Source: Roseospira goensis (GTDB taxonomy: Bacteria > Pseudomonadota > Alphaproteobacteria > Rhodospirillales > Rhodospirillaceae). Taken from it: a stretch of DNA of 64,000 nt. Of this stretch, positions 9,738 through 46,610 are shown in pieces. Each line of letters begins with the position of its first letter. Position 1 is the stretch's first letter. Position numbers and translations under genes: made by a program. The notes below the pieces were generated by a model. The model was not told where the DNA came from. It made no database searches and saw only the letters and a program-made list of their open reading frames with translations. The DNA is taken from assembly GCF_014197795.1 (NCBI RefSeq), contig NZ_JACIGI010000004.1:167003-231002 (forward strand). Direction: 5' to 3'.

Positions 9738-9814
9738 AAAACATTGTTTTTGTAGTGCACTTTCGATCCGGACAAAAGAAGACGGACTGCACCTTTTGTC
9801 GGGGTCCGTGCCCT

Positions 9815-9876
9815 AGGGCAGATCGTGATCAATCTGACTCACGCCGTGTGTCGGATTGATCACGTGACTCTGCCCT
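9815..9876. repeat. Nested palindromic element, GATCAATC-type inner arm (element G)
   Basis: Outer arms AGGGCAGA (9815-9822) and TCTGCCCT (9869-9876) enclose an inner palindrome built on GTGATCAATC (9825-9834) and GATTGATCAC (9854-9863), with a further imperfect core. The inner arm is related to those at 35252 and 39800. It is separated by 13 bp from the next element at 9890. Confidence 0.7.
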
Positions 9877-9889
9877 GACTCAAGGAGTA

Positions 9890-9951
9890 AGGGCGGATCG
9901 ACCCATGGCATTGGAACCCGGGCGCGGGTCCAATGCCGTGCGATGCGCCCT
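9890..9951. repeat. Nested palindromic element, GGCATTGGA-type inner arm (element H)
   Basis: Outer arms AGGGCGGATC (9890-9899) and GATGCGCCCT (9942-9951) surround the inner arms GGCATTGGAACCCG (9907-9920) and CGGGTCCAATGCC (9925-9937). The terminal CCCTAG spans the ribH stop codon. The same inner arm recurs at 17428-17489. Confidence 0.75.
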
Positions 9952-10411
9952 AGAGCCCCATCTCGCGCTTGACCTCGATCATGCGCAGGCACGACCGGGC
10001 CGCCTTGCCGCCCAGGTCCTTACCCTCGGGCCGGGAACGCTCCAACGCCAGCTCCCGCGTCGGGCAGGTCAGGATGCCGTTCCCCAGGGCCAGGGAGTAG
10101 TCCAGGACCATGCGGCTGACACCGCTCATCGCCTCATGGCAGACATGCTCATAGTGATCGGTCTCGCCCTTGATGGCGCAGCCCAGCACCACGTAGCCCG
10201 CGTAGCGATGATCGACGGCCCGCAACTCCATGGTCCGCACCGCATAGCGGATGACGGCCGGAATCTCCAGGATGCCGGGGACGATGATGCGCTTGTAGCC
10301 GGCTCCGTGCGCGGTCAATGCCTGCACGCAGCCGCGCACCAGATTGTCGGCGATGTCCTCGTAGAACCGCGCCTCGACGATCAGGATCCGGGCGCCCTCG
10401 GCCATGCTCAT
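9950..10411 (-). CDS. ribH: 6,7-dimethyl-8-ribityllumazine synthase
   Basis: RibH condenses 3,4-dihydroxy-2-butanone 4-phosphate with the ribityl-aminouracil intermediate to give lumazine, the penultimate step of riboflavin synthesis. The 153-residue product has ARILIVEARFYEDIADNL, the substrate loop VPGILEIPAV and GCAIKGETDHYEHVCHEAM with the catalytic-region His. The start ATG (10411) overlaps the ribBA stop as ATGA, so it is translationally coupled; an in-frame ATG two codons later is also possible. Its TAG stop lies inside a nested palindromic repeat. Confidence 0.97.
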   Translation of the reverse strand: MSMAEGARILIVEARFYEDIADNLVRGCVQALTAHGAGYKRIIVPGILEIPAVIRYAVRTMELRAVDHRYAGYVVLGCAIKGETDHYEHVCHEAMSGVSRMVLDYSLALGNGILTCPTRELALERSRPEGKDLGGKAARSCLRMIEVKREMGL

Positions 10412-17427: not shown

Positions 17428-17489
17428 AGGGCGGGGTCACGCACGGCATTGGAGCCTGCGAGCAGGTCCAATGCCGTGTGATCCGCCCT
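17428..17489. repeat. Nested palindromic element, GGCATTGGA-type inner arm (element I)
   Basis: Outer arms AGGGCGG (17428-17434) and CCGCCCT (17483-17489) surround CACGGCATTGGA and TCCAATGCCGTG inner arms. It is the near twin of the element at 9890-9951. The closing CCCTAG spans the stop codon of the following 3-hydroxyisobutyrate dehydrogenase gene. It is not paired with a second element. Confidence 0.75.
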
Positions 17490-18384
17490 AGCCCTGGCTT
17501 TGTCCGTCGATCATCCGAATGATACCGGAGAAGTCGCGGTCGCCCTCACCCTGGTTGCAAAACAGGGCGTAAAGCGCCTCCGCCGCCGCCCCCAGGGGAG
17601 TCGCCGCCTCACCGGCCGCCGCCGCCTGCTGCGCCAGCTTGAGGTCCTTGAGCATCATCGCCGCGGTGAACCCGGGGGCGTAGTCGCGGTTCGCCGGGCT
17701 GGTCGGCACCGGTCCCGGCACCGGGCAGTAGGTGGTCAGGGACCAGCACTGCCCGGACGCCTTGGAGCTGACGTCGAACAGCTTCTGGGCGTCGAGCCCG
17801 AGCCGCTTGGCGAGCGCGAACGCCTCGCAGACCGAGAGCATCTGAATGCCCAGCATCATGTTGTTGCAGATCTTGGCGGCCTGACCGGTGCCCGGCCCGC
17901 CGGCGTGCACCACGGCCTTGCCCATGCACTCCAGGATGGGGCGCGCGGCCGTCACGGCCTCGTCGGGACCACCCACCATGAAGGTAAGGGTCCCGGCCTC
18001 GGCGCCGCCGACCCCGCCGGACACCGGGGCGTCCACCATGCGCAGGCCGGCGTCGGCCGCCGCCGCCGCCACCGCGCGCGCACTGTCCACGTCGATGGTC
18101 GAACAGTCGATCAGCAGCGCGCCGGCCGGTGCGGCGCCGATCACGCCGCCCTCGCCCGTGTAAACCCCGCGCACGTGCTGGCCCGCCGGCAGCATGGTGA
18201 CCACCACCTCGGCCCCGGCGGCGGCCTCGGCGATCGTCCCGGCGCGACCGGCCCCGGCGCTCTCGGCCCGCTCCAGCGCCGCCTCCGAGAGGTCGAAGGC
18301 ACGCACCGTGTGCCCGGCCTTCACGAGGTTCGCCAGCATCGGGCCGCCCATGTTGCCGAGCCCAATGAATCCGATGGTCGCCAT
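17488..18384 (-). CDS. mmsB: 3-hydroxyisobutyrate dehydrogenase
   Basis: The enzyme oxidises 3-hydroxyisobutyrate to methylmalonate semialdehyde with NAD+, a late step of valine breakdown. The 298-residue protein has the Rossmann motif GFIGLGNMGGPM, the substrate loop VDAPVSGGVGGAEAGTLTFM and GTGQAAKICNNMMLG with the catalytic Lys. Near the end it has GRDFSG-like DRDFSGIIRMI, typical of the family. ATG 18384 has GGGAGGAG upstream. It is the last gene of a three-gene leftward set with the hydrolase and acyl-CoA dehydrogenase, which gives the assignment extra weight over other beta-hydroxyacid dehydrogenases. Confidence 0.93.
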   Translation of the reverse strand: MATIGFIGLGNMGGPMLANLVKAGHTVRAFDLSEAALERAESAGAGRAGTIAEAAAGAEVVVTMLPAGQHVRGVYTGEGGVIGAAPAGALLIDCSTIDVDSARAVAAAAADAGLRMVDAPVSGGVGGAEAGTLTFMVGGPDEAVTAARPILECMGKAVVHAGGPGTGQAAKICNNMMLGIQMLSVCEAFALAKRLGLDAQKLFDVSSKASGQCWSLTTYCPVPGPVPTSPANRDYAPGFTAAMMLKDLKLAQQAAAAGEAATPLGAAAEALYALFCNQGEGDRDFSGIIRMIDGQSQG

Positions 18385-35153: not shown

Positions 35154-35179
35154 GACTTCCCCCGACCACTGGTTACATA

Positions 35180-35239
35180 CAGCCGATTGCGACAAACCGG
35201 AATCGCGGCGCGATTTCAGTTTGTCGCGATAATCGGCTG
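35180..35239. repeat. Nested palindromic element, GCGACAAACCG-type inner arm (element A)
   Basis: Outer arms CAGCCGATT (35180-35188) and AATCGGCTG (35231-35239) enclose a 19-bp inner arm starting GCGACAAACC that matches its partner at 17 of 19 positions. Related copies are at 38160-38223 and 39725-39784. It sits in the upstream region of the ligase-GNAT gene, 12 bp from element B. Confidence 0.8.
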
Positions 35240-35251
35240 CGATTCTTAAAT

Positions 35252-35317
35252 TTAGCGCGGATTCACGCGATCAATCCGAACCACGTCGTGGGTCCGATTG
35301 ATCGCGATCCGCGCTAA
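35252..35317. repeat. Nested palindromic element, GATCAATC-type inner arm (element B)
   Basis: Outer arms TTAGCGCGGAT (35252-35262) and ATCCGCGCTAA (35307-35317) are perfect complements. The inner 20-bp arms, beginning CGCGATCAATCCGAACC, match at 18 of 20 positions. Its close copy is at 39800-39859 and a diverged one at 9815-9876. Confidence 0.8.
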
Positions 35318-37639: not shown

Positions 37640-38086
37640 ATGCTGGACACCTGGCACCGCTGGATCGCCGCGTTCAACCAAGCCTGCGAGGCCGACGCCT
37701 GGAGCGCGCTGGACCCGTTCCTCACCGACGATGTGGTGTACATCGTCGCGGGCGTGCCGTTCGCCTGCGAGCTGCGCGGGCGTAAGGCCGTGATCGCCGG
37801 GTTCCAGCGCTCCGTCCGCGGTTTCGACCAGCACTTCGAGCGCCGCACCTGGACCGGCGTCGGCGTCCGGCTGTGGGAGCCGGGCACCGTCACCGCGCGC
37901 GCCCTCGGCCGCTACACGCGGGCCGGTGCCCCCGACCTGACCTTCGCGGCTCACGGTACCTGGGTGTTCCGCCATGATCGTATCGCCATGATGCTCGACC
38001 TGTACGATCCGGCGGAAGCGGACATCCAGGCGGCGATGGCCTGGCTGGGCGAGCACGGGGCGGACCTGGACCCGAGCTACGCTTAG
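37640..38086 (+). CDS. SnoaL-like (NTF2-fold) protein
   Basis: The 148-residue product has the cone-shaped NTF2 fold pattern: a helical start (WHRWIAAFNQACEADAWSAL), DPFLTDDVVYIVAGVPFACELRGRKAV split by a short turn, then the strands RYTRAGAPDLTFAAHGTWVF and IAMMLDLYDPAEADIQAAMA. Members act as ester cyclases, hydratases or binding proteins; function here is unknown. ATG 37640 follows GAGGAG. It is divergent from the XRE/MmyB gene. Its TAG stop forms the left end of a nested palindrome. Confidence 0.72.
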   Translation: MLDTWHRWIAAFNQACEADAWSALDPFLTDDVVYIVAGVPFACELRGRKAVIAGFQRSVRGFDQHFERRTWTGVGVRLWEPGTVTARALGRYTRAGAPDLTFAAHGTWVFRHDRIAMMLDLYDPAEADIQAAMAWLGEHGADLDPSYA

Positions 38087-38147
38087 CGCCGATCGCTCGA
38101 AATCGGAACCGCAGATGCGGTCCGATTTCGAACATGAATCGGCTCTA
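38084..38147. repeat. Nested palindromic element, TCGAAATCGG-type inner arm (element D)
   Basis: Outer arms TAGCGCCGAT (38084-38093) and ATCGGCTCTA (38138-38147) match except one base. The inner stem (38097-38113 with 38116-38131) pairs along 16 bases with one bulge. The first three bases are the stop codon of the SnoaL-like gene. It is 12 bp from element C. Confidence 0.75.
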
Positions 38148-38159
38148 CATTATTGAGTT

Positions 38160-38223
38160 TACAGCCGATTATCGCGACAAACCGAAGTCGTGCCGCGATT
38201 CCGGTTTGTCGCAATCGGCTGTA
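38160..38223. repeat. Nested palindromic element, GCGACAAACCG-type inner arm (element C)
   Basis: Outer arms TACAGCCGATT (38160-38170) and AATCGGCTGTA (38213-38223) are perfect complements. The inner arm CGCGACAAACCG and its complement CGGTTTGTCG are the same as in elements A and E. It lies between the convergent SnoaL-like and GGDEF genes. Confidence 0.8.
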
Positions 38224-39504: not shown

Positions 39505-39567
39505 CGGAGCAGAGCGCCCCGGTCGCGACCACCGCATGGTCGCGATCCGGGGCGTGGGTCCGCTCCG
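39505..39567. repeat. Nested palindromic element, TCGCGACCA-type inner arm (element J)
   Basis: Outer arms CGGAGC (39505-39510) and GCTCCG (39562-39567) enclose GCCCCGG-TCGCGACCA and its complement, which differ by a single inserted base. Length (63 bp) and design match the other elements, but the arm sequences differ. It lies 30 bp upstream of the GGDEF start codon. Confidence 0.6.
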
Positions 39568-39724
39568 AATGGCCGTCTCTTGAACCGGTTCACGTCGGGA
39601 TCCAGGCACGCATGACTCGGCTCGCCCGAGACTGTACGCGCAAGTCCGGACTCTTTCCAAGGAGCCCCGCCCAAGGCGCCGACGCGTGCCCCTGTCAGGC
39701 TCAGACAGGGGGGCGCGCCTGTTA

Positions 39725-39784
39725 CAGCCGACCGCGACAAACCGGACTCGCGGCGCGATTTCGGTTTGCCGCACAAATCGGCTG
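39725..39784. repeat. Nested palindromic element, GCGACAAACCG-type inner arm (element E)
   Basis: Outer arms CAGCCGA (39725-39731) and TCGGCTG (39778-39784) are perfect; the inner arms (GCGACAAACCG and its complement CGGTTTG-C-CGC) have a few changes. It is paired with element F, 15 bp away, in the same order as A and B at 35.2 kb. Confidence 0.8.
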
Positions 39785-39799
39785 AGACTCATATAGGTC

Positions 39800-39859
39800 G
39801 CGCGGAGTCACGCAATCAATCCGAACCACATCGTGGTTCCGATTGATCGCGATCCGCGC
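39800..39859. repeat. Nested palindromic element, GATCAATC-type inner arm (element F)
   Basis: Outer arms GCGCGGA (39800-39806) and TCCGCGC (39853-39859) enclose CAATCAATCCGAACCAC and GTGGTTCCGATTGATCG. The right arm runs into the TAG stop codon of the SprA-like gene (CGCTAG). It is almost identical to element B. Confidence 0.8.
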
Positions 39860-40806
39860 TAGGCGATCAGGCTGAACACGGTCCGCGGCGGTGTCAGGGC
39901 GGGCGCCGCGTCCGCCGATCCGGGAGCGGCCGGGCCGGGGGCCAGGGCGCCGGCGCTGCCATAGGCCGCGGCGGCGGCTCCGAAGAAGGCGGCCCGCCGG
40001 TCCGGGCTCCCCGCCGCCACACCCTCCTCCGTCTCGGCCGCATCCTCCCGTTCCTCCTCGCGCTCCTGCTCGCGCTGGGCCGCCTCGGCCTGGGCAAGCG
40101 CCGCCTCCGCCGCCGCGGCGGCGGCACGGTCGGCCGGCGACGGATCGGCCGGCGCCAGCGCGGCGCGCTTGACCTGTTCGAGTTGGCGGATCGCCTGCTC
40201 GGGGTCGGTGCTGCCGGAGGCATTGAGCGTGATGCTGACCTCACCGCCCACCGCATACTGGCGGCCGTCGGGACCGGTCACATAGGTGAAGGTGGCCGGG
40301 CCGGTCACCCCGACGCCGGCGGCCTTGTGCGCCGCCTCGTGCTGACGCACCCGGCGGTCGATGGCCTGCAGGCGACGGACCTCGGCCCGCTCCTCCGGGG
40401 TCAGGCCGTCCGGGCCGACGTCCCCGTTGACCCCTGACGTGCCCCCGGCCGCGCCTCCGCCACCGCTGCCAAGCGAGGCGGCGACCGCCGTCATCGGCTC
40501 CCCGGTCAGGGGGTCAATCTCGACAGGCTCGCCGGTCAGGGGATCCAGGCGGGTCTGCACCGCGCCGTCGAGGCGGCCCAGCGTCCCGAGCACATCGGTG
40601 GACAGCGATGGGGTCCGACCGGCGATCTGGACGGGGACGCCGGACCGGCCCGCCACGGCGCCGGAAGGGGCACGCCGGGCCGCGGCCGCGCCCTGGCGGG
40701 GCGCCCCGTCCCGGGCCGCGCTGCCCGATGCCCCCTCGACGGCGGGCGGGCCCGATGGCCGCGACACGCTGGCCGGCATCTGGAACACGCTGACAGGCGA
40801 GAGCAT
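39859..40806 (-). CDS. SprA-related putative metalloprotease
   Basis: The 315-residue protein has a low-complexity N-terminus with a direct repeat [17 protein letters not shown], then a conserved core from residue ~135: [20 protein letters not shown], the zinc-binding-like HEAAH at 156-160, [20 protein letters not shown] and [20 protein letters not shown] with PADPSP. This core is the SprA/catalase-like 'putative metalloprotease CJM1_0395' domain found in many proteobacteria. A Glu/Ala-rich coiled-coil tail and disordered end follow. Substrate and activity are unknown. No signal peptide is seen. Confidence 0.8.
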
Positions 40807-45983: not shown

Positions 45984-46610
45984 GGGCGCCCCACAGGCAG
46001 GCGGTCCCACGCCGGAGCGTGGGACCGAGAACCCCTGATCTTCCACCCACGCTCCCGCGTGGGCGCCCCACAGGCACGCGGTCCCACGCGGGAGCGTGGG
46101 ACCGAGAAGGGAACCCCTGATCTTCCGCCCACGCTCCCGCGTGGGCGGGCCTGCGCTTCGCATCCGGTCCCACGCCGGAGCGTGGGACCGAGAGAGGGTT
46201 TCTCGCGCCTACGCGCCCGCTTGGGCGCCCCACAGGCACGCGGTCCCACGCCGGAGCGCGGGACCGAGAACCCCTGATCTTCCGCCTACGCGCCCGCTTG
46301 GGCGCCCCACAGGCACGCGGTCCCACGCCGGAGCGTGGGACCGAGAGAAGGTTTCTCGCGCCCACGCGCCCGCTTGGGCGCCCCACAGGTACGCGGTCCC
46401 ACGCGGGAGCGTGGGACCGAGAAGGGTTTCTCGCGCCCACGCTCCCGCGTGGGCGCCCCACAGGTACGCGGTCCCACGCGGGAGCGTGGGACCGAGAAAG
46501 GGTTTCTCGCGCCCACGCTCCCGCGTGGGCGCCCCACAGGCACGCGGTCCCACGCCGGAGCGTGGGACCGAGAGAGGGTTTCTCGCGCCTACGCGCCCGC
46601 GTGGGCGCCC
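45984..46610. repeat. Tandem array of eight ~76-bp units, each with two palindromes
   Basis: Units begin with CGGTCCCACGC at 46002, 46079, 46165, 46241, 46318, 46394, 46469 and 46545 (spacing 75-86 bp). Each holds a 10-bp-arm palindrome (GGTCCCACGC / GCGTGGGACC) and a second one (GCCCACGC / GCGTGGGC), followed by GGGCGCCCCACAGG. The joint between them exists in two versions: with ACCCCTGATCTTCC (units 1, 2, 4) or with GGTTTCTCGCG (units 3, 5-8). The array separates the convergent matB and kinase genes. Frames through it give only Arg/Gly/Pro repeats and are not genes. Confidence 0.92.

Follow-up and report, generated by a model that had tools for sequence, protein, structure and literature searches.

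Paired palindromes in the Roseospira goensis genome are probable two-hairpin MITEs with IS630-type termini and often a GANTC site at a fixed offset

Introduction

Positions 35180 to 35317 of a 64,000-nucleotide stretch of Roseospira goensis DNA, here called the window, carry two nested palindromes side by side, and palindromes of similar design recur elsewhere in the window. What is the natural unit of this repeat, and how did it reach its present places? A preliminary description had listed ten palindromes of 60-66 bp, likened them to REP/BIME elements and assigned them to no described family. We examined their folding, boundaries, genomic copies, insertion sites and termini in R. goensis (the host, assembly G000 with contigs C1, C2 and so on) and in other genomes.

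Results and Discussion

Palindromes in the window

All ten palindromes fold with the outer arms and longer inner palindrome described before, and a bulge that lies mostly on one side separates the two stems. Eight of them form four close pairs, and their spacings of 13, 12, 12 and 15 bp were confirmed. The palindromes are thus real, but their natural boundaries are flanking TA dinucleotides, so that the unit at the locus extends from 35178 to 35316. The following elements were placed in the window; letters denote half types and U numbers the composite types defined below.

9814..9952, plus strand: composite unit U4, halves C2 and D, TA at both ends
17428..17490, minus strand: lone D half with TA at a single end, probably a truncated U4 unit
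35178..35316, minus strand: composite unit U2, halves A and C, TA at both ends; A half 35178-35239, spacer 35240-35252, C half 35253-35316
38084..38223, plus strand: composite unit U1, halves B and A, TA at both ends; linker including TAs TACATTATTGAGTTTA
39505..39567, plus strand: nested palindrome F without TA ends, doubtful family member
39723..39861, minus strand: composite unit U2, halves A and C, TA at both ends

The palindrome at 39505-39567 lacks TA ends, and at E 0.1 no further copy of it turned up among the 1.21 Mb of host DNA searched, made up of contigs C1-C5 plus the initial 60 kb of C6 and including the window. A nested-palindrome scan of the window returned 14 matches compared with 0-5 in ten order-2 Markov copies; seven were listed elements, two belonged to a second repeat family and five lay within the chance level, while three listed elements were missed owing to arm mismatches. 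The same scan of the 1.21 Mb gave 84 matches versus 22 in one order-3 Markov copy, an excess to which the second repeat family contributes. That family is an unrelated short palindrome, CCCACGC..GCGTGGG, with a cluster of eleven copies at 46006-46566 of the window and 105 pattern copies in the 1.21 Mb. An Rfam search of the window yielded nothing reaching the gathering score.

The pair is the repeating unit

Single-sequence profile searches detected 83 halves of several sequence types in the 1.21 Mb. A whole-genome BLAST search with one A half found at least 40 copies with at least 90% identity (40 of 96 candidates scored). When halves were assigned an orientation (+ or -) by the side of the bulge, 23 of the 28 close pairs in the 1.21 Mb were (+,-); the remaining five include one nested insertion and one three-module array. 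None of the 28 combined two halves of the same type. Half combinations recur, each with its own linker (e.g. TACATTATTGATTTTA), which identifies a composite of 137-140 bp as the natural object in place of the single 60-66 bp palindrome. The unit types are U1 (B + A), U2 (C + A), U3 (B + E), U4 (D + C2) and U5, which consists of B2 and a bulge-free half, G.

Both ends of the composites mostly read TA-VRGCVGAT (ends listed for 66 units; here and below the hyphen separates the flanking dinucleotide from the element). Distances between left and right end motifs form clusters of 60-69 and 130-149 bp, and composites of 137-140 bp carry no transposase gene. With up to two mismatches, the U5 end pattern matched 108 times in the host genome and not at all in a reversed control.

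Two unusual arrangements were observed. The three-module array at G000:C2:228671-228853 (L055 8671-8853) contains B, A and C halves and suggests that units swap or stack modules. A solitary half of about 61 bp with end motifs on both sides, at G000:C21:54976-55036, is apparently a hybrid of the two U5 ends, either a deletion product or a minimal element.

Insertion with a 2-bp target duplication

Altogether 66 distinct units were located in host DNA, and both ends could be placed in 54. Their flanks were TA/TA in 33 cases and AT/AT in three; 15 units had TA at one end and three at neither. The AT/AT flanks show that the dinucleotide is target DNA which is duplicated on insertion. Two nested insertions were analysed. 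At C4:129967-130103 a U2 unit is interrupted at a TA of its A half by a U5 unit; the flanks of the latter, rejoined with one TA, align without gaps across the junction to intact copies including the one at 35180 of the window. On contig C60 (L023) a U1 unit with AT/AT flanks resides within a copy of the second repeat family, and the rejoined flanks align gap-free over 70 columns with 81% identity to C2:191447. The composite therefore inserts with a 2-bp target duplication of TA, occasionally AT.

The site of the 35178-35316 unit was compared by synteny with sister (same-genus) genomes. The distance between two conserved anchors is 177 bases in the host and 43, 47, 45, 79 and 49 bases in G003, G001, G002, G004 and G005, respectively, a difference that a single complete unit would produce; by this measure the five sisters lack the insertion. 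Global alignment scores were uninformative, the joined flank scoring higher than the occupied one for G003 and G002 and lower for G001, and the anchor distances are used here instead. This is the one orthologous empty site resolved; joined-flank searches at six further sites gave one-sided matches only. Duplication, nested insertions and the site vacant in five sisters bear out the initial view of a dispersed, mobile-type repeat of regular design.

A REP/BIME-type mechanism would imply that a RAYT transposase (Y1, HUH) spread the elements by working on hairpins of single-stranded DNA. A pair of bulged hairpins facing opposite ways does look like a minimal BIME, palindromes alternate in orientation in both systems, and the genome encodes one Y1 transposase, a 189-aa ORF. 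The elements are longer than REP/BIME sequences, though, and their flanking dinucleotides match at both ends (TA/TA, AT/AT), which is not expected of HUH single-strand insertion. Moreover, no element half adjoins the only Y1_Tnp gene of the assembly, beside which there is a REP-like fragment of another kind. The 2-bp duplication together with the IS630-type ends described below points to a DDE transposase instead, and we regard spread by a RAYT as extremely unlikely. The Y1/RAYT-type gene itself, the sole one found in the genome, is located at L091 1354-1923 (G000:C6) on the minus strand of that locus.

IS630-type termini

The DDE_3 domain of IS630 transposases occurs in all six sister genomes and in G375, a genome of the same class but outside the order; it exceeds the family cut-off in five of the six sisters (all but G005) and in G375. 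It was not found in the host assembly, in which contigs C67-C81 read as N. These fifteen smallest host contigs (L137-L151) contain no G or C, and multi-copy insertion sequences may be hidden in them.

A strict version of the end motif was present in two of the ten DDE_3 loci from sisters or G375, L184 and L193. The 5′ end of L184 is TAGAGCGGATTGAGCGG, and the terminus that it shares with the elements is TAGAGCGGATTG; its 3′ end reads CCGCT-TG, not CTC-TA. L193, a remnant, ends with TAGAGCGGATTTCGATCAATCGG directly after the transposase stop codon, and 20 of 23 positions of this end are identical to the C half by manual count. Right after the stop codon, L185 ends with CGCTC-TA and L192 with CACTC-TA. 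The motif is missing from L186, L187 and L191, which belong to another IS630 subgroup, and from L188-L190. Across these comparisons the terminal match of the elements to IS630 spans 10-23 bp.

The L185 transposase, with its DDE_3 domain confirmed, matched 648 PLSDB records in tblastn, including an annotated ISRm2011-2. From the matches listed among these records we hand-picked 27 IS630 loci, and an automatic end finder recognized a TA-flanked terminal repeat in 18. The resolved termini begin with TAGAGC (12), TAAAGC (3) or TACAGC (1), i.e. in 16 of 18; the other two (L201, L214) look misplaced at an inner TA, and an earlier rule had put L201 at TAGAGC. At the sequence level, the element termini TA-GAGCVGAT match the ends of alphaproteobacterial IS630-family elements.

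Searches for an autonomous partner in the host gave no insertion sequence with these ends in the 1.21 Mb, where 14 motif pairs at 0.6-3 kb lie nearly all between known units. Among the matches listed for the whole host assembly, there was no pair of U5-type ends at insertion-sequence length. Partner-type IS630 elements were found only in sister genomes and not in the host assembly, C67-C81 reading as N. Mobilisation by an IS630 transposase is well supported.

Another DDE family that duplicates 2 bp could also give rise to such MITEs. The IS427 group of IS5 duplicates TA, and partial DDE_Tnp_1 matches, which we take to be IS5-like, lie at edges of three contigs, C55, C51 and C6. The end motif is absent from the four DDE_Tnp_1 loci, whereas the termini agree with IS630 of the sisters and with 16 of the 18 resolved plasmid IS630 elements, down to the same inner GANTC spacing. 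An origin from IS5/IS427 is accordingly very unlikely. Integron attC sites were considered as well; by eye, the ends do not read RYYYAAC/GTTRRRY.

Related repeats in other genomes

U1 matched four of 61 genomes, in full in the host and partially in G002, G003 and G006 (best 89% over 72 bases), and the U5 end pattern gave 0-2 matches in each of six same-genus genomes. A degenerate pattern, run on GTDB r220 with one genome per species and possibly without the host's own records, identified five loci in three other alphaproteobacterial MAGs, including Magnetospira and Rhodospira. A second, stricter pattern hit two of 386 genomes of the class, the host and G375, with no match in the control. The five MAG loci and two G375 loci consist of two adjacent palindromes with inner stems other than those of the host elements; the second half of L124 is bulge-free, and L156 has no TA at one end. 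As to carriage by phages, the element pattern was absent from viral_contigs.

A Rhizobium repeat is abundant in PLSDB, with 370 matching records. In all three loci read it makes up half of a unit that is flanked by TA and contains two palindromes whose bulges are opposite; at about 52 bp its halves are shorter than those in the window, and they differ in sequence. Among 16 hand-chosen halves from six taxa, all are nested palindromes, 14 have a one-sided bulge and 15 hold GANTC, with a mean positional identity of 0.36 in the inner arm and 0.46 at the outer end. The same plan with other stem sequences thus occurs in Magnetospira, Rhodospira and Rhizobium.

Comparison with known systems

RIME1 and RIME2, the Rhizobium-specific intergenic mosaic elements of Osteras (1995), reportedly comprise two large palindromes in 108-109 bp. 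Our elements share this two-palindrome plan and differ in length and host range; the Rhizobium repeat is presumably RIME1 itself. IS630 elements of the ISRm2011-2 kind have in common with the MITEs the TA target, a terminus that is mostly TA-GAGC and, in most of them, a GANTC at offset 22 of the transposase-proximal end. They differ by a length of about 1.05 kb, the transposase gene and a right end without the offset-22 GANTC.

The CIR repeats were reportedly described by Chen and Shapiro in 2003. According to a 2007 review by Delihas, these Caulobacter CcrM-associated intergenic repeats of Caulobacter and Brucella are about 110 bp long, join two inverted-repeat arms by a linker, contain GANTC and end in TA; the TIR is listed as absent, the TSD as unknown and the mobility is unexplained (PMC2229807; CIR are also mentioned in PMC10969869). 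Like CIR, the elements are intergenic, with two arms and a linker, GANTC, TA termini and several sequence species per genome. Unlike CIR, in a comparison by description only, they measure 137-140 bp, show a TIR and a TSD, and possess IS630-type termini. The same review names RUP, which is linked to IS630-Spn1, Correia/NEMIS and ERIC as TA-ended bacterial MITEs (PMC2229807). These share with our elements a length of 100-200 bp, the lack of a transposase gene and TA ends with duplication, but they fold as one long 5′-3′ stem, whereas each end forms a separate hairpin here.

Since an alphaproteobacterial class with the same plan has been described (CIR and RIME), the elements are not new in kind; the novelty claimed for them in the preliminary description held for these sequence families only. 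They are IS630-type two-hairpin MITEs belonging to the CIR/RIME kind, different in sequence as far as seen. Searches of open-licence literature brought up neither these families nor a CIR/RIME-type repeat with IS630 ends, nor an IS630 end with GANTC at a fixed place, which is weak evidence of absence; as far as this literature showed, the IS630-type termini and the GANTC at a fixed 22-base offset are new. According to the 2007 review, CIR resemble MITEs only partly and more information on their movement is needed (PMC2229807). The present elements follow the CIR plan, have terminal repeats, duplicate 2 bp of target, occur as nested insertions and are matched by an IS630 family, so that CIR movement becomes directly testable. 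Their build suggests how a poorly understood alphaproteobacterial repeat class may move.

GANTC sites and CcrM

Within the 35178-35316 unit two GANTC sites were mapped.

35200..35204, plus strand: GAATC, 22 bases inside the TA of the A end
35260..35264, plus strand: GATTC, inner foot (bulge) of the C half

GANTC is enriched in the elements, with 83 sites in 4,955 bases (16.8 per kb) versus 1.5 per kb genome-wide, a rate that counts related copies and not independent events. At least one site is present in 71 of the 83 halves. Palindromes of the same composition occur 914 to 3,317 times in the 1.21 Mb, and GANTC 1,821 times. In 46 of 120 unit ends a GANTC is situated at a distance of exactly 22 bases, counted from where the flanking dinucleotide begins, the middle base being C in 29, A in 16 and T in one. 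A further 62 sites are found at the inner foot, 51-53 bases in, with A (32), C (28) or G (2) in the middle. In U1, U2 and U5 the offset-22 site and the foot site mainly occupy different ends, and in U3 and U4 a single end can hold both.

The same position is occupied in IS630. Left ends of the plasmid elements display GANTC at offset 22 in 13 of 18 cases (A 11, C 1, T 1), or in 11 of the 12 ends resolved under the earlier end-placing rule, while right ends do so in none of 18; any GANTC at all was seen in 27 of 520 background 45-mers. L184 likewise has the site at offset 22 (manual count). It is absent from L220 of Planctomyces, the sole locus outside the Alphaproteobacteria, from L198 (Azospirillum) and from L216 (M. 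nodulans).

The host encodes CcrM, with N6_N4_Mtase and RAMA domains and a match to the solved CcrM 6pbd at E = 1.5e-156. The middle base varies in the MITEs, which is most simply explained by selection for a site that can be methylated; because N is A in 11 of the 13 offset-22 sites of the insertion sequences, the motif could there be a promoter or a transposase-binding motif. CcrM control of these elements is an inference. The fixed position common to insertion sequences and MITEs, together with the variable middle base in the latter, suggests that CcrM may control alphaproteobacterial transposition. More tentatively, and with greater doubt than trust, we propose that an alphaproteobacterial IS630 branch and the CIR/RIME-type repeats derived from it share a fixed GANTC 22 bases from the TA, and that their transposition is cell-cycle-gated, the ends being usable mainly when hemimethylated behind the fork. 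The two-hairpin ends would then be the part read by the transposase or by CcrM. Dam controls IS10 and IS50, and gating via CcrM, if true, would be the alphaproteobacterial counterpart.

Genomic position and decay of inserted copies

According to a rough gene caller based on GC frame, convergent genes enclose 20 of 55 loci, tandem genes 26 and divergent genes three; another three loci are inside called genes and three at the edge of a contig. Among the intergenic gaps, 114 of 699 are convergent, and they account for 34,196 of 246,188 intergenic bp. This bias to convergent gene pairs, the strong hairpins and the stem pairing conserved between families would fit functional RNA or DNA elements that the host maintains by selection at each place, whether as terminators for both directions, as stabilisers of mRNA 3′ ends or as protein sites. 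Selection against promoter hits would leave the same position bias, however, and the insertion at 35178-35316 is missing in sister genomes.

Base-pair changes in the stems bear on this explanation. Type B shows nine compensatory changes where 4.4 double changes are expected, but mixes two lineages; type G has eight (7.3 expected). In types C and B2 there is one each (3.5 and 7.9 expected). Type A, with 41 copies and 28 stem pairs, accumulated 69 one-sided breaks, 27 one-sided GU pairs and six double breaks, and its two compensatory double changes compare with 11.4 double changes expected by independence. So few compensatory changes give little sign of structure being restored site by site, and maintenance by the host at each place is unlikely. 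The hairpin structure is kept between mobile lineages while inserted copies decay.

We consider it quite probable that the repeats are MITEs of about 140 bp which were moved in trans by a DDE transposase of the IS630/Tc1-mariner type and then decayed. Each element consists of two ends, each complementary to itself and opposite to the other in orientation, with a linker of 12-16 bp between them. The transposase, presumably supplied in trans and now absent from the host genome or unassembled, would have recognised an element by its ends, excised it and placed it at a TA. Fixed GANTC sites, hemimethylated just after replication, may let CcrM methylation influence when the ends are used. Once inserted, copies would decay, the hairpins being conserved between mobile lineages and not repaired copy by copy.

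Several units directly adjoin a stop codon, where the target TA and the first G of the element restore TAG. A U1-type unit is positioned in this way at the stop codon of ccrM (L183 1912-2051, G000:C15), so that the target TA and the first base of the element form the TAG stop of the gene for the methylase of the family's own site.
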